Shown here piece after piece: positions 17,866 through 45,598 of a DNA stretch of 64,000 bases; the stretch's first letter is position 1; each line of letters begins with the position of its first letter. The DNA comes from Shewanella sp. HN-41 (GTDB taxonomy: Bacteria; Pseudomonadota; Gammaproteobacteria; Enterobacterales; Shewanellaceae), in the NCBI RefSeq assembly GCF_000217915.1, contig NZ_AFOZ01000047.1, positions 1 through 64,000 on the forward strand, written 5' to 3'. A program made the translations under genes and the position numbers. Below the pieces are notes generated by a model that was not told the DNA's origin, made no database searches, and saw nothing but the letters and a program-made list of their open reading frames with translations.

Positions 17866-18743
17866 TTAATGAATTTTGCTAAGAATACCGTCTAATTCAG
17901 CCAGATTCTGATAGTTAATTACAATTTTACCTTTGCCCTTACTGCTATGAGCGATGGAAACCTTAGCACCCAATCTTTCAATTAACTGCTGCTCTAAACG
18001 ACAAACATCTTGATCTTTAGTCGTAGTTTCGGCAGGTTTGGGCGGATTTAAGGTTTGGTTAACCAATCGTTCAGTTTCGCGAACGGTTAATTCCTTAGCA
18101 GCCACTAATCTCGCTAAATTTGTCTGTTCTTCACCTTCAATTGCTAATAAAGCGCGAGCATGACCCATATCAATATCGCCATACTCAAGTAAACGCTTAA
18201 CAGGCTCATTCAAGCCGTTTAATCGTAACAAGTTCGATACACTCGCTCGGGATTTTCCCACAACATCGGCAACCTGTTGGTGAGTCAGTTCAAATTCTTG
18301 CATTAAACGTTGCAATGCTATGGCTTCTTCCATGGCATTTAAATCTTCACGCTGGATGTTTTCAATCAAAGCGATAGCGACGGCGGCTTCATCGGGAACT
18401 TGTTTGACAATACAAGGAATTTTACTGATACCCGCCAGTTGTGAGGCGCGCCAACGGCGTTCACCCGCAATGATCTCATACATATCGTTTGCGACTTGTC
18501 TTACTACGATAGGCTGAATAATGCCTTGATTGCGAATAGAGTGTGCCAGCTCTTCCAAGGCTTCGGGAGACATGTCTTTACGCGGTTGATACTTACCCGG
18601 TTGCAGAAGATCCAAATCAAGATGGATAAGTTCTTCTTTTTATCGGTAACTGTCACTTCCTCAGAGTGCTTTTTACTAGCAGCGTGACTGTTACTCAGCA
18701 AGGCATCTAACCCTTTGCCTAATCCTCTTTTCTTTAACGTCAT
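17866..18743 (-). pseudogene. parB: Chromosome partitioning protein ParB, interrupted by a one-base frameshift
   Basis: ParB binds parS, spreads as a CTP-dependent clamp and works with ParA to segregate the origin. The N-terminal part (MTLKKRGLGKGLDALLS, from 18743) is in one frame. The rest, from LDLLQPGKYQPR through the GERRWRAS CTP/arginine motif and the helix-turn-helix THQQVADVVGKSRASVSNLL to the C-terminal dimer domain, is in another. The switch falls at a run of five T on the plus strand (18637-18641). One extra T would restore TDKKEELIHLDLDLL and a 292-residue protein of normal length. Both halves look fully conserved, so an assembly error or very recent deletion is likelier than decay. 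It directly follows parA (9 bp gap). Without correction, the downstream frame could start only at a TTG (18615) and would lack the N-terminal ParA-interaction segment. Confidence 0.92.
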
Positions 18744-18752
18744 GGTGATCCT

Positions 18753-19541
18753 TTACGCTTGCTTAGCCTGAGTTTTCTGTTCTGAACGGCGGATCATTTC
18801 CCCTGCGAGCGCCAAATATGCCTTAGCACCCGCGCTCGACTTATCGTAATACATAGCTGGAGCCCCAAAACTGGGTGCCTCCGCTAATCGAACATTACGC
18901 GGGATCACAGTTCGATATACTTTATCGCCAAAATGTTGTTTTAGCTGATCGGACACATCATTTGAGAGTCGATTACGGGGATCGTACATAGTGCGTAAAA
19001 TCCCTTCGATCCCAAGTCCTGGATTAACAAAAGCCGCTAACTTGGTAATGGTATCAATCAGCGCCGTTAAGCCTTCAAGGGCAAAATACTCACATTGCAT
19101 AGGTACCAATACTGAATCGGCGGCAGACATCGCATTAACCGTCAGCATATTGAGTGAAGGAGGGCAGTCAATAAAGATATAATCGTACTGATCTTTTATC
19201 GGTGCGAGCGCATTACGTAAGCGGATCTCTCTGGCAAAAAACTCCATCAGCTTGATTTCTGCTGCCGTCACATCGCCATTACTGGCGATCAGATCATATT
19301 TACCCGCGGTATTTTTAACGACGATCTCATCGAAGGGTTTATCTTCAACCAGCAATTCGTAAGCCGTATTATCGACATCGTATTTATCGACACCACTGCC
19401 CATAGTGGCATTGCCCTGCGGATCGAGATCTATCAGTAGTACTTTGCGTTTTGTTGCGGCTAACGAAGCAGCTAAGTTAACGCAAGTAGTTGTTTTTCCT
19501 ACGCCACCTTTCTGGTTAGCCACGGCAATTACTTTACCCAC
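18753..19541 (-). CDS. parA: Chromosome partitioning ATPase ParA (Soj)
   Basis: ParA is the ATP-dependent, DNA-binding partner that moves ParB-parS complexes. The 262-residue protein starts almost at the deviant Walker A KGGVGKTT (residues 11-18). It has [12 protein letters not shown], the Walker B segment [11 protein letters not shown], and no N-terminal helix-turn-helix, so it is a chromosomal (Soj-type) ParA rather than a plasmid one. First gene of parAB, following rsmG by 74 bp. Confidence 0.96.
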
Positions 19542-31878: not shown

Positions 31879-32957
31879 GCCTGACCCGTCTTAATATCGA
31901 AGCTTTTCGCAATATTCAATTGGCGCAATTGAGCCCAAGTTCTGGTATTAACGTCATTTATGGCCAGAATGGCAGCGGCAAAACCAGTATTTTGGAGGCG
32001 ATTTATTTCCTTGGTATGGGGCGCTCCTTTCGCAGTCATTTATCCCAACGGGTGATCAATAACGACGAGGATAAGCTGACCTTATTCGCCACGTTAAATT
32101 TACCCCGTGGCGACAGTAAAATCGGTTTACGGCGGTTCCGTAGTGGCGAGACTGAAGTGAAAATCGACGGTGAGAAGGTGAAGCGCTTATCGACATTAGC
32201 CGAAACTTTGCCTATCCAAGTCATTACTCCTGAAAGCTTTTCTTTATTGTTTGAGGGGCCAAAATCCCGTAGGCAGTTTATTGATTGGGGTGCGTTTCAT
32301 TCAGATCCGCAATTCTACGGAGCTTGGATGAACGTTCGCCGAGTTCTTAAACAGCGAAATCAATTACTTAGAAACGGTTCGGCCTATGATAGTATTCAAT
32401 ATTGGGACCGAGAGTTTGTTCGTTATACCGAGCAGGTCACCGAAATACGAAACCGTTATGTAGACTCGTTAAATGAGCTACTTAAGGGTATAATCGGGGA
32501 GTTTTTACCGCTGATAGATGTGAAGGTTTCATTTACCCGCGGTTGGGATAGTAAAACGGATTTTGCGGAGTTACTCACAACCCAATATCCCAGAGATTTG
32601 GCCACGGGTCATACCGTCAGCGGTCCCCATAAAGCTGACCTTAGACTTCGTGTAGGCACTTTGCCGGCGCAGGATGCCCTGTCCCGTGGTCAATTGAAAT
32701 TATTAGTCTGTGCACTGCGTATTGCACAGGGAAAGTTGCTCAAACAACAAACAGATAAACACAGTATTTATCTTGTGGATGATCTTCCATCCGAGTTGGA
32801 TGCACAGCATAGGCAGCTATTGCTTAAGCAGTTAACGGATACCGGAGCACAAGTGTTTGTGACCGCCATAGATCCTGCAGCAATAGTCGATTCGTTACAC
32901 ACGCCTCCCAGTAGGATGTTTCATGTGGAACAGGGACGTGTAACGGTAATTGAATAA
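31875..32957 (+). CDS. recF: DNA replication and repair protein RecF
   Basis: RecF helps load RecA at gaps through RecFOR. This SMC-like ATPase of 360 residues has the Walker [10 protein letters not shown] near residue 36, the signature region [11 protein letters not shown] and the Walker [11 protein letters not shown]. It ends [13 protein letters not shown]. The codons for MFHVEQ create a near-perfect parS sequence. Separated from dnaN by 177 bp with a hairpin and possible leader peptide, and followed closely by gyrB (16 bp). Confidence 0.96.
32917..32932. other. parS-like site inside recF (one mismatch)
   Basis: TGTTTCATGTGGAACA differs from the perfect site at 45583 by a single central C-to-T change. 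It lies in the conserved MFHVEQ codons of recF, so it could reflect protein constraint; whether ParB binds it cannot be told from sequence. Confidence 0.5.
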
Positions 32958-40389: not shown

Positions 40390-40506
40390 GTCTACTTGTC
40401 TACTGCCGTCAGCCTGAATAGAAAATGGGTTCGATTATACCTTGTAGATATCTGCTTATGTAGGTTATTTTTTACCTTCTTAATTAAAACAATAAGGTTA
40501 TATGTC

Positions 40507-41109
40507 ATGGAAGAGATCCGTTGTGGCTGGGTAAGTGATGATCCTCTATATCGTGAGTATCACGACAAAGTGTGGGGGCGACCTGTTTATGATCCAAAGG
40601 AGCTGTTTGCTAAGTTGTGTTTAGATGGCCAACAGGCCGGATTATCTTGGATTACGATCCTGAAAAAGCAACAAAACTATGAACAGGCCTTTGCCAATTT
40701 TGAACCTGAGATTATTGCGACTTTCGATGAGGCGAAAGTAGAGGATCTCATGTTGAATCCCGGTATAGTGCGCAATCGCTTGAAGGTGAATTCTATCATC
40801 AAGAATGCCAAAGGTTATTTAGCCTATACTGCCGATGGGAAGGATTTCTCTGCATTTTTATGGAGCTTTGTGGGCGGTAAACCCATAGTTAATCAGATTA
40901 CGGCAATGTCGCAGGTTCCGGCACAAACACCAGAATCTGAAGCCATGTCAAAAGCGTTGAAGAAACTCGGATTCAATTTTGTCGGCCCAACCATTTGTTA
41001 TGCCTTTATGCAGGCGGTGGGCATGGTGAACGATCACCTTGTCGAGTGTATTTCCTATCAGGCCTGTGTTGATTCCTGTGCCGGACAACATAACCACGAG
41101 CAACATTAA
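40507..41109 (+). CDS. tag: DNA-3-methyladenine glycosylase I
   Basis: Tag removes 3-methyladenine from alkylated DNA. The frame is open from 40300, but that part overlaps glyQ and its promoter region; the ATG at 40507 (MEEIRCGWVSDDPLY) gives 200 residues. The zinc-snap ligands are visible: Cys6 and His19 near the N-terminus (YHDKVWG) and HLVEC near the C-terminus. The HhH-type region with GLSWITIL and the pattern GFNFVGPTICYAFMQAVGMVNDH are conserved. Confidence 0.95.
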   Translation: MEEIRCGWVSDDPLYREYHDKVWGRPVYDPKELFAKLCLDGQQAGLSWITILKKQQNYEQAFANFEPEIIATFDEAKVEDLMLNPGIVRNRLKVNSIIKNAKGYLAYTADGKDFSAFLWSFVGGKPIVNQITAMSQVPAQTPESEAMSKALKKLGFNFVGPTICYAFMQAVGMVNDHLVECISYQACVDSCAGQHNHEQH

Positions 41110-41174
41110 TCGTAGAGCTTGCCGATATTGAAGTAGGGTTTGGGACTTGTTGTGGTATTAGAAGTCCAGAGATA

Positions 41175-41206
41175 AAAAAGCATGTTCCACGTGGAACATG
41201 CTTTTT
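41175..41206. terminator. parS: tag terminator built around a perfect parS site
   Basis: A perfect 32 bp palindrome: five A and GCA, the 16 bp parS core TGTTCCACGTGGAACA (41183-41198), then the mirrored half ending in five T. As RNA it would be a long hairpin ending in a U run, placed 66 bp after tag. As DNA it is a consensus ParB site. Both functions are consistent with the same bases. Confidence 0.85.
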
Positions 41207-41290
41207 GTTATTCGCAGGAGTTATTTACTCTTAGAAAGTCTAAATGGCCATATAGAAAAGCGACAATTTCATTTTTCCTTGAGGTCGAAC

Positions 41291-44200
41291 TTAGTTTTTC
41301 TCAAAGAAAAATGGCTTACGCTGTTCTTTATCCCCATTAAGTTCATTCATAGTCTCAGCATTAAAAAGCTTACCATTGACCATAGTATGAGTGACTCTGT
41401 CGGTGACTCGAATGTCGGCTAATGGATCACCATCAATAACGATCAAGTCTGCGAGCTTACCTTCTTTAATCGAACCGAGTTGCTGTTCCATACCAAAGGT
41501 CATAGCCGGATTAATGGTGGCCGTTTTCAATACTTCCATATTGCTCATGCCACCTTGGGCGAACATCCACATTTCCCAGTGTGCCGCTAAACCTTCACGC
41601 TGACCGTGGGCGCCGATATTAGGGTGAACCCCTAACTTATTGAGCTCATTAGCAACCTTAGCAACATTGAAATGATTGTAGTGGCCATCTGGTGCATGGG
41701 GTCGTCGCATTGATCTCGCTTGCAAAATATCGGCTGGCACATACATGGATAGGCGTGGATGGGCCCACACATCGGTTTTATCATACCAGTAGTTTTCACC
41801 GGATATGCCACCATAGGCGACCACTAAGGTTGGCGTGTAACCAACTTTAGTCTGGCTCCAAAACTGTTTGATATCGTTATAGATTGAACCAACGGGGAGT
41901 GAGTGCTCAATCGTAGTATGGCCATCGGCGACCATAGTGAGATTGTGTTGTAGCAAACTGCCACCCTCAGGCACGACCATCATTTCAAGTTCACGCGCTG
42001 CGGCTATGACTTGCTGTCTCTGATTGCGGCGCGGTTGGTTGTAGCTTTTTACGCTGAAGGCTCCGACTTTTTTCAGGCGTTCAAGATGAAACTTGGCATC
42101 ATCCAGTGAGTCTATGTGCGATGTGTAGCCAGGCGCATTCGCTCCATAAAGTATAGTTCCGGTAGAGAATATTCGTGGGCCAACAATATTGCCTGCTTTT
42201 TGTTGCTCAGATGCGGCAAATATTTCTGTAGTGTCATTCGATGGATCGTGAATAGTGGTGACACCTAAGGAAAGGCCAGAATACAGCGCCCAGTTCTGTT
42301 GCGGCACAATTTCATCATCTGCTTGCGGTCCATGGGCGTGGGCATCGAATAGTCCTGGCATAATGGATTTGCCTTTGATGTCGATGATCTGCGCATCCTT
42401 AGGAATCGCGATATTGGCATCACCTACGGCGACAATATGATTATCTTTGACTATGACCACGCCATTGTCGATGACTTGATCGTTTTCCATCGTAATCACT
42501 TTGCCACCGACGAAAGCGATTGTTCCACGTGGAACATCGGCCTTTTCGGTAAAGCCTAAATTGATAATGCTTGGCTGAGCCTTTTCATCTTTATTGAGAT
42601 ATTGAGTATCAACCTTGGCTTGATAAAGTTCAGGGCCAAGCGTCCAATACAGTTGGTTGCTTTTACTGTTCCAACTAATACTTTCACCGGCGCGGACACT
42701 CAATTGGCTTACAGGTAAATTGTTGGCATTGGGGCCGATCTCAACTGTTTCGCCGTGTTTAGCAAAAGGTGTCACCCAAACCTTAAAGCGCTCTGCGAAG
42801 GCGAGTTGCTCACCATCGGGTGAAACCCTAAACTCAGTCGCATGCTTGCTACTGTAATGAACTCGCTTATCGAAGCCATCTAAGTTGATAGATGCTAACT
42901 GTGGCGTTTCATCTTCGCTGCTATTCATAAAAAAGACACGATCGGCATTTGCACCAAATTGAGCTTGGTAGCCATCGGCACTGATCTTCTTATTTTGTTT
43001 GCCTTTGATATCGACTCTATATAGTCCAGGCTCCTGCGACCAAGTTCTAGGTGTGAGGTTGCCTCCCTGAGTTTTGCGATACACCACGAGTTCACCATCG
43101 GGTGAAAAGGTGGGTTCGACGTACTTTCCTGGCTCAGATGTTAGCTGCTTAGGTTTGCCCCCTTTGGCACTAATGACTTGTACTGTACCTTGGTCTTGGT
43201 CATTCCAAGTGGTGAAAACAATATTTTTGCCATCACGGGACCATTGAGGATACAGTTCTTCAATATCATCATTGAGTTCAGTTAAGCGCGACATCTTGCC
43301 ATCGGGCAATGATTTTAACCAAATCTTACCCAGTGCTTCGAAGGCGACTTTGCTGCCATCGGGCGATATTTGTGTCATCCGCAGCATTTTTACATCGAAA
43401 ACATCTTTATCTATATTTTGCTTAAAGCGCACTGAGGGTTGCACCGCTAACTCAGTTTTTACGCTGAAGGGGATATCTGTGAGTGTTTTACTGGCAACAT
43501 TCAGGCGGTTAATCTTTCCCTTCGCCCAGAAGAAAATATCCTTGTTATCTTGAGTCCACGCCATTGTCGGGTAGACGCCATGAATCGCCCAAGTTTCTTG
43601 CATATCACGGTCTAGCTCGCCAAACAGTTTAGTGGTTTCACCAGACTTAAGGTCGAGCAGGTAGAGTGATGACTTAAAATCATCACGCTTTATATAGGCG
43701 AGTTTAGTGCCATCTGGACTCGGTGTTGGTCGAATCGCACCACCCGTGCCTTCAATCAAGATTTCTATATCACCGGTTTGGGTATCATAGCGTTTGATTT
43801 TGTAGATACCGTTAACCGAGTCCTTTGAATAGTGGAATGTTTTGCCTGGCGTATCATCTTGGCTAAAGTAGATATAACGGCCATCTGGTGAGTACGCGGG
43901 TTCGCCTAAATCTTTCTCATCATTTGGGCGTTCAGTCAGTTTGACGCCTTCGCCACCTGCTACGTGGTATAACCACACTTCACCCGCACCTAAACTGCGG
44001 CTGGCGGTAAAATGCTTACGGGCCACAAGGTATTGGGAGTCTGGGCTCCAAGCGGGACTGTTTAATAGTCGGAACGTTTCTTGGGTGACCGTTCGTGGAT
44101 TGCTGCCATCGGCATCCATGATCCAAATGTTATCGCCACCATCTCCATCCGAAGTAAAAGCAATGTGCTTGCCATCTGGGCTATAGACGGGCTGCATCTG

Positions 44201-44479
44201 CCAAGCAATGCCTTGGGCCAATGGTTTAGCTTCACCACCTGTTACTGGAATTTGGTAAATATCACCGAGTAAGTCGAAGACGATATGCTTGCCATCTGGA
44301 CTAACACTTAAGTTCATCCAAGTGCCTTCATTTACGTCTATTTTGACTTGTTCTAGGGGGGCATTCTCTGGAGCGTTAACATTCCATTTCAATTCCTTAG
44401 TGTCAGCAGCATTGGCCGCGAGGGTATTCATCCCCAGCGTGAGGGCGATGTAAAGTGGGGTCAGCTTGGATTTCAACAT
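41291..44479 (-). CDS. Periplasmic amidohydrolase with N-terminal TolB-like beta-propeller
   Basis: This large exported protein has 1062 residues. A signal peptide ends near ANA-AD (about residue 25). Residues about 50-600 contain repeated PD40/TolB-type blades (SPDGKHI, SPDGRYIYFS, SPDGSKVAFEA, SPDGELVVY), a beta-propeller. From about residue 655 an amidohydrolase domain starts (FVGGKVITM), with the metal-binding DAHAHG near residue 712, further His residues (EHS, HGQREG) and a closing KEGKLADLIVIDGDPL. Such fusions are annotated as amidohydrolases or imidazolonepropionase-like; the substrate is unknown. It is a single gene. Codons for DVPRGT contain a perfect parS site. Confidence 0.9.
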   Translation of the reverse strand: MLKSKLTPLYIALTLGMNTLAANAADTKELKWNVNAPENAPLEQVKIDVNEGTWMNLSVSPDGKHIVFDLLGDIYQIPVTGGEAKPLAQGIAWQMQPVYSPDGKHIAFTSDGDGGDNIWIMDADGSNPRTVTQETFRLLNSPAWSPDSQYLVARKHFTASRSLGAGEVWLYHVAGGEGVKLTERPNDEKDLGEPAYSPDGRYIYFSQDDTPGKTFHYSKDSVNGIYKIKRYDTQTGDIEILIEGTGGAIRPTPSPDGTKLAYIKRDDFKSSLYLLDLKSGETTKLFGELDRDMQETWAIHGVYPTMAWTQDNKDIFFWAKGKINRLNVASKTLTDIPFSVKTELAVQPSVRFKQNIDKDVFDVKMLRMTQISPDGSKVAFEALGKIWLKSLPDGKMSRLTELNDDIEELYPQWSRDGKNIVFTTWNDQDQGTVQVISAKGGKPKQLTSEPGKYVEPTFSPDGELVVYRKTQGGNLTPRTWSQEPGLYRVDIKGKQNKKISADGYQAQFGANADRVFFMNSSEDETPQLASINLDGFDKRVHYSSKHATEFRVSPDGEQLAFAERFKVWVTPFAKHGETVEIGPNANNLPVSQLSVRAGESISWNSKSNQLYWTLGPELYQAKVDTQYLNKDEKAQPSIINLGFTEKADVPRGTIAFVGGKVITMENDQVIDNGVVIVKDNHIVAVGDANIAIPKDAQIIDIKGKSIMPGLFDAHAHGPQADDEIVPQQNWALYSGLSLGVTTIHDPSNDTTEIFAASEQQKAGNIVGPRIFSTGTILYGANAPGYTSHIDSLDDAKFHLERLKKVGAFSVKSYNQPRRNQRQQVIAAARELEMMVVPEGGSLLQHNLTMVADGHTTIEHSLPVGSIYNDIKQFWSQTKVGYTPTLVVAYGGISGENYWYDKTDVWAHPRLSMYVPADILQARSMRRPHAPDGHYNHFNVAKVANELNKLGVHPNIGAHGQREGLAAHWEMWMFAQGGMSNMEVLKTATINPAMTFGMEQQLGSIKEGKLADLIVIDGDPLADIRVTDRVTHTMVNGKLFNAETMNELNGDKEQRKPFFFEKN
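42521..42536. other. parS: parS centromere-like site inside the amidohydrolase gene
   Basis: TGTTCCACGTGGAACA is a perfect 16 bp palindrome identical to the core at 41183 and to the parS consensus of gammaproteobacteria. It falls in codons for Asp-Val-Pro-Arg-Gly-Thr at the propeller/amidohydrolase junction (about residues 648-653). Confidence 0.85.
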
Positions 44480-45582: not shown

Positions 45583-45598
45583 TGTTTCACGTGGAACA
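45583..45598. other. parS: parS site between the TusA-like and diguanylate cyclase genes
   Basis: TGTTTCACGTGGAACA matches the universal parS consensus (TGTTnCACGTGnAACA). It is intergenic, 25 bp past the diguanylate cyclase stop. The third consensus site within 4.5 kb. Confidence 0.86.

Follow-up and report, generated by a model that had tools for sequence, protein, structure and literature searches.

A parS palindrome of Shewanella sp. HN-41 predicted to double as a two-way transcription terminator

A 32-bp palindrome of Shewanella sp. HN-41 is very likely one DNA element with two jobs, a predicted parS and a predicted two-way terminator. It lies between the convergent genes tag and a gene for an amidohydrolase protein, in a 64,000-nucleotide stretch of DNA that we analysed as a whole (the window). 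As double-stranded DNA, its 16-bp centre would be a chromosomal parS that loads ParB. Transcribed from either side, the same bases would form a hairpin of 14 pairs that has ACGU as its loop and a U-tract at its end, and the transcripts of both genes would stop there. The outer arms would be kept for pairing and the centre for sequence, and no regulatory link between the two jobs would be needed.

Results

Sequence and fold of the palindrome

The original prediction described a perfect 32 bp palindrome with the 16 bp parS core at its centre and A5/T5 ends, and this proved exact. The stretch 41175-41206 reads A5-GCA-TGTTCCACGTGGAACA-TGC-T5, in which the centre (41183-41198) is parS, with six A on the left (41174-41179) and five T on the right (41202-41206). 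The inverted-repeat listing gives two arms of 16 nt each (41175-41190 and 41191-41206), 100% complementary and with a spacer of 0 nt; the four further inverted repeats listed between 40000 and 46000 reach only 9-12 per arm. The features to which we refer are as follows.

40507..41109, plus strand: tag, DNA-3-methyladenine glycosylase I, 200 aa (TIGR00624, 250.6 bits, cut-off 232.5)
41175..41206, no strand: 32-bp palindrome, parS within complementary arms AAAAAGCA / TGCTTTTT (fold, inverted repeat, compensatory change)
41175-41188 with 41193-41206 as stem and 41189-41192 as loop, no strand: predicted bidirectional intrinsic terminator hairpin (RNA fold)
41183..41198, no strand: 16-bp parS core TGTTCCACGTGGAACA, predicted ParB loading site (consensus match, conservation)
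41202..41206, plus strand: T5 tract, predicted U-tract of the tag transcript (sequence, conserved T in flanks)
41174..41179, minus strand: A6 on the plus strand, predicted U6-tract of the amidohydrolase transcript (sequence, conserved A in flanks)
41291..44479, minus strand: TolB-like beta-propeller plus amidohydrolase protein, 1062 aa (partial matches below curated cut-offs)
42521..42536, no strand: second exact parS, within the amidohydrolase gene and without complementary arms, an internal control (consensus match)
45583..45598, no strand: third exact parS, TGTTTCACGTGGAACA, with one complementary base past the core (consensus match)
32917..32932, no strand: parS-like site one base off the consensus, within the 3' portion of recF (consensus match)
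17866..18615, minus strand: parB (ParB/Spo0J family), frame shortened in this assembly (profile match)
18753..19541, minus strand: parA-like partition ATPase gene (matches below curated cut-offs)

As RNA, the 32-mer folds into 14 pairs closed by the ACGU loop at -18.6 kcal/mol, against -3.84 +/- 2.12 kcal/mol for shuffled versions, of which 0/200 equalled it. The surrounding 52-mers fold at -20.4 kcal/mol on the plus strand and -19.2 kcal/mol on the minus strand. This hairpin, with its 4-base loop, begins 65 bases past the tag stop codon and lies 84 bases from the stop codon of the convergent amidohydrolase gene. It carries T5 on the plus strand and T6 on the minus strand, tracts which are mostly paired with the opposite A-tract. 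A simple consensus terminator scan of the window returned five sites (5.2 expected by shuffling) without the palindrome, we believe because the T run was counted inside the stem and not after it. A known RNA family was ruled out by an Rfam search of 40400-42700, which gave 0 matches above the gathering score. A chance palindrome was ruled out by the fold relative to shuffles and the perfect arms, together with the conservation and the two-sided changes described below.

Partition genes and other parS sites

Sites were scored against TGTTTCACGTGAAACA / TGTTYCACGTGRAACA, which we take to be the parS consensus. The window holds four parS-like 16-mers (at most 3 mismatches from TGTTTCACGTGAAACA) where 0.38 are expected, and 0/100 shuffles reach four. 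Across the whole genome, exact matches to TGTTYCACGTGRAACA occur only at 41183, 42521 and 45583, all within 4.4 kb; the near-matches are 32917, with one mismatch, and two further places with two mismatches. The parA and parB genes lie ~22 kb from the exact trio, and recF nearby fits a putative near-oriC placement. The 16-bp consensus, the clustering of sites and the presence of parA and parB in the window are as in chromosomal ParABS systems. The parB open frame is 257 aa here and 293-322 aa in 17 other genomes with a match, a shortening that may be a sequencing error or a real loss; in the parB region (17866-18750, minus strand), an N-terminal GLGKGLDALL stretch is out of frame with the remainder.

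Conservation across Shewanellaceae

Among 146 Shewanellaceae genomes, at least 144 contain an exact parS and 144 contain Tag. We analysed 143 tag loci in two batches (30 and 113), leaving out G117, where tag is at a contig end, and the second Tag paralogue of G061, and keeping G014 although its Tag is only 46% identical. An exact parS lies downstream of tag in 128/143 loci, and the stretch read contained none in the other 15. At the first parS after tag, 110/128 sites have at least five contiguous complementary bases beyond the 16-mer, compared with 5/156 of the other parS in the same loci, which rules out the palindrome as a requirement of every parS. Three of the 18 first sites without five contiguous pairs are the intragenic site. 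In genus g2 (L167-L176 and others), the amidohydrolase region carries a parS-like word, GGTTCCACGTGGAACA or GGTTTCACGTGGAACA, ~1.3 kb past tag.

The sequence of the arms varies between species and their complementarity stays. Over the 128 first sites, the commonest arms are aaaggg/cccttt (24), aaagga/tccttt (19) and aaggca/tgcctt (12), followed by aaagca/tgcttt, aaaagg/cctttt and aaagag/ctcttt at eight sites each, and further variants exist. Each of the flank positions 1-5 pairs in 119-123 of these sites, with three or four kinds of pair. In the outer arms, A predominates to the left and T to the right: at offsets 5-8, A is found in the left flank of 109-119 and T in the right flank of 98-112 of the 128. 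The median predicted folding energy is -18.8 kcal/mol for first sites and -9.8 kcal/mol for other parS.

Compensatory changes in the arms

We examined covariation in 121 distinct rows, in which 94.2% of cells are paired. There are 185 two-sided changes against a shuffle mean of 41.7, with 0/500 shuffles having as many, and the covariation score is 0.315 against 0.123 for shuffles and at most 0.146 for slid partners. Of the five measures, one stays within chance: pairs showing at least one two-sided change number 9, against 7.4 expected, and 63/500 shuffles reach that value. To allow for kinship, a tree was calculated from the C-terminal part of the amidohydrolase; its 113 rows had been chosen beforehand to have no fewer than 4 complementary bases among the 6 of the flank, so that its result leans towards pairing. 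On this tree, the minimum numbers of changes at flank pairs 1-4 are 12, 12, 9 and 15. Along supported branches, the left base made 5, 5, 6 and 8 independent switches between A/T and G/C type, and the right base followed the same way in 4.6, 4.8, 4.0 and 8.0 of them and the opposite way never. Flank position 4 alone reaches p<0.05 by itself (0.0078), and flank pairs 5 and 6, with only 2 and 3 independent switches, display no clear concert. The pair counts and the tree together indicate that the stem has been kept by compensatory changes. Mispairs in the arms (122 rows) comprise 13 A.C on the plus strand, equivalent to G.U on the minus strand, 5 of the reverse kind and 9 other mismatches. This hints that the minus-strand hairpin matters more, and we draw no conclusion from it because the rows are related.

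Conservation of the core within the hairpin

We also searched each locus from -40 to +1700 relative to the tag stop for any hairpin of 14 pairs and a 4-base loop with at most two mispairs, whether or not it held parS. This search, run without a shuffle control, found a hairpin in 120/143 loci. The core is an exact parS in 108 of the 120, has one mismatch in 3 and has at least eight in 9. The 111 parS-like cores (108 exact and 3 one-off) are thus conserved against drift; with mismatches of 0-1 or at least 8 and hardly anything between, pairing holds the arms and sequence holds the core. L069 and L111 have CA in place of the central CG, inside the RNA loop (CACATG), with the hairpin retained, and in L061 an end base of the core is altered. 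The hairpins without parS in L166 and L178, more than 1300 bases away, may be chance.

These one-base core changes in three genomes, the other parS that remain nearby and the shortened parB frame of this assembly would all suit an element that is only a terminator, its 16-mer no longer serving as parS. We regard such a loss as highly improbable, the least probable of the readings weighed here, since the core is exact in 108/111 while the adjacent arms changed many times, and the mismatch counts leave no drift between the two extremes.

Position relative to the two converging genes

The original prediction had the parS palindrome double as the Rho-independent terminator of tag. A double role on the same bases is what the comparison across loci favours; the assignment to tag is too narrow. 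The site is found 23-162 bp past the amidohydrolase stop in 118/121 measurable loci (22/143 were unmeasurable), and these distances rule out a terminator of tag only. The exceptions are L069, L111 and L166, where the first exact parS is more than 1.2 kb inside the amidohydrolase gene; in L069 and L111, the altered hairpin is still present near tag. Some species have open frames between the element and tag, and the element stays by the amidohydrolase gene. Furthermore, the A-tract that would serve the minus strand is no worse than the T-tract for the plus strand. Because of the U-tracts on both strands, the steady amidohydrolase distance and the open frames before tag, we predict a terminator that acts two ways; the element is best called a putative shared terminator of the convergent pair, tied more steadily to the amidohydrolase gene than to tag.

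Possible origin of the element

Some relatives display, at this spot, arrangements that resemble earlier steps. In L165 and L167, an ordinary hairpin and T run lie 19-20 bases past tag, without parS (outer arms AAAAAAGG/CCTTTTTG in L167), and L171 and L175 have a hairpin at that spot without a clean T run. L147 and L162 have, 1-3 bases past tag, a parS whose flanks contribute 0 and 3 complementary bases and which adjoins a separate terminator hairpin. In L153, L154, L107 and L123, parS lies 717-881 bases past tag, next to a separate hairpin. The occurrence in relatives of an ordinary terminator, or of a parS next to one, suggests that parS replaced the inner stem-loop: parS probably first settled at a terminator and only afterwards displaced that stem-loop, an order that we infer from an unrooted comparison.

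Palindromic arms of other polarity

Some sites have complementary arms that do not look like a terminator. In genus g16 of family f12, the site L189:2988 carries T in the left arm and A in the right arm, the reverse of terminator polarity, and in the window's own genus L123 has 13-base arms of the wrong polarity at a site 25 bases past tag. Some palindromic arms therefore have another cause, and those studied here could in part serve DNA symmetry. The L189 site adjoins a separate downstream hairpin, and similar sites are among the matches listed for the related genomes G156 and G199. For the other genera, the patterns ended in H with D or B and so missed some sites, and the counts from that survey are samples. 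Viral contigs gave 0 matches to the pattern of terminator polarity and 0 to that of reversed polarity, and hence no polarity control.

Together with four later parS that have 7-8 complementary bases and no T run (L069, L072, L079 and L124), the arms in g16 and L123 would fit a palindrome that is only parS, in which the extra symmetry would act at the DNA level, by aiding ParB binding or a cruciform, and the hairpin would be irrelevant to transcription. This seems very unlikely given that arms are uncommon at the remaining parS of these loci, that the A-left/T-right polarity prevails at first sites and that a gene end is nearby in nearly all measurable loci. It would also leave unexplained why L069 and L111 keep the hairpin despite an altered core, and why parS has no or short arms where it lies beside a separate terminator (L147, L162).

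Occurrence in other bacteria

To get a picture beyond Shewanellaceae, we scanned a collection of genomes from 84,980 species once with the pattern AAAGSN-parS-NSCTTT. The scan found 84 stretches, 80 of which are listed as loci: 36 in Shewanellaceae and 44 elsewhere. The latter include Acinetobacter, Rossellomorea/Bacillus, Clostridia, Ligilactobacillus, Bacteroidota, Eggerthellaceae, Brevinema, Chloroflexi, Akkermansia, Comamonas, Sedimentisphaerales and more. In 43 of these 44 matches, the exception being L255, the unconstrained S and N positions are complementary, for which the chance is ~1 in 8 each. Six of the 44 (L227, L231, L232, L236, L245 and L255) lie inside frames that run for 120 codons or more without a stop, and thus may not be terminators. 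Ten neighbour genes were chosen for annotation: three belong to the ParB family, two are mnmG, and metG, argS, an amidase, an aromatic transaminase and a threonine-synthase-like protein (below cut-off) occur once each. At L235, L243 and L264, all from Bacillota, the predicted parS-terminator is directly 3' of a parB-family gene.

In 12 non-Shewanellaceae genomes from the scan, 15/39 parS combine a U-tract with arms of 4 bases or more, and 12 of the 15 are the matches that selected the genomes. In the genus of Acinetobacter modestus (G623; 41 genomes), arms of at least 4 occur in 20/78 listed sites, and these belong to 15 of the 32 genomes for which any site is listed. Four genomes of this genus (G623, G637, G640 and G674) each have two different parS with such arms, some of these sites being candidate one-sided terminators in which a T run comes after TCGG or TAGG.

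Closer to the window, the sampled loci gave one positive site in 47 for the class, the window's own, and 1/50 for the order in the arm-and-U-tract test, and from these sequences the predicted parS-terminator is not general in either. The R1 model matched 11 of 369 class genomes, the window's own among them. Among eleven further places, L211, L215, L220 and L221 are without a parS-like core, L214, L217 and L218 are inside open frames, and L212, L213 and L219 show 5-base arms and no clear U-tract, L212, which directly follows a short open frame, being arguable. The eleventh is a clean case, L216:1515 (G401), GCCCGA-parS-TCGGGCTTTTG, 28 bases past a 367-codon open frame, and it is apparently an independent gammaproteobacterial case. 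That open frame itself contains a parS. Predicted parS-terminators seemingly arose separately in other bacteria. That they form a recurrent bacterial class of repeated origin, one that halts polymerase at the centromere and lets ParB loading and local transcription affect each other, is a broader proposal that we consider improbable, if somewhat less so than any of the rival readings of the Shewanella element.

Discussion

Reuse of a recognised DNA word in a terminator is already known. Neisseria DNA uptake sequences, when arranged as inverted repeats, act as Rho-independent terminators (PMC2397512), and there, as here, a recognised word is reused as the stem of an intrinsic terminator. The two cases differ in that the Neisseria stem consists of two copies, in a closely spaced inverted repeat, of a word that is abundant in the genome, whereas a single palindromic, centromere-like site forms the predicted inner stem in Shewanella, with a different protein and a different purpose. 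The element also resembles the bidirectional intrinsic terminators found between convergent genes, having a stem, a short loop, an A-tract before and a T-tract after, and acting in both directions by prediction. However, the inner stem and loop of ordinary bidirectional terminators drift, and here they are fixed in sequence by another constraint.

A full-text search of open-licence papers returned no report of parS as a transcription terminator in the accessible portions of PMC7022226, PMC12779278, PMC6090056, PMC5521831, PMC5815017 and PMC7414963; the accessible text of PMC5521831 uses 'terminator' twice, both times for cloning terminators. Within the parts of the open-licence papers that were searched, the parS version of word reuse appears new.

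The original prediction further proposed that a ParB-bound terminator could couple transcription to partition complex loading. As a selected switch, ParB loaded at the palindrome, or sliding from it, would alter termination, or termination would spare ParB from being stripped by RNA polymerase. Both functions sit on shared bases between convergent genes, similar elements occur in distant bacteria, and ParB bound to the intergenic parS3 and parS4 of Pseudomonas aeruginosa represses PA0011 and PA0013 (PMC7022226). The P. aeruginosa sites are alike in being intergenic parS that affect transcription; they act upstream of genes and through ParB, whereas in Shewanella the action is predicted for the RNA, at the ends of genes. 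A terminator-like hairpin is absent from most other parS in the genomes that carry the element, which indicates that insulation is not required for a parS, and economy alone explains the pattern. Our results lend no support to coupling, each of them also being explained by economical co-option, and we consider a selected switch unlikely, although less so than a palindrome that is parS only.

The distribution of parS was reportedly treated in a comparative paper by Livny and co-workers in 2007, which may mention parS-terminators. For the Shewanella element, two constraints on the same bases can be told apart by comparison alone, as sequence in the core and pairing in the arms, and the suggested origin is a terminator whose inner stem-loop became parS. 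The element would offer a natural test case for how transcription across parS bears on ParB loading and spreading, and for how loaded ParB meets RNA polymerase at gene ends. Finally, its recurrence in other phyla suggests that partition sites can settle in terminators, as the uptake words of Neisseria have done.
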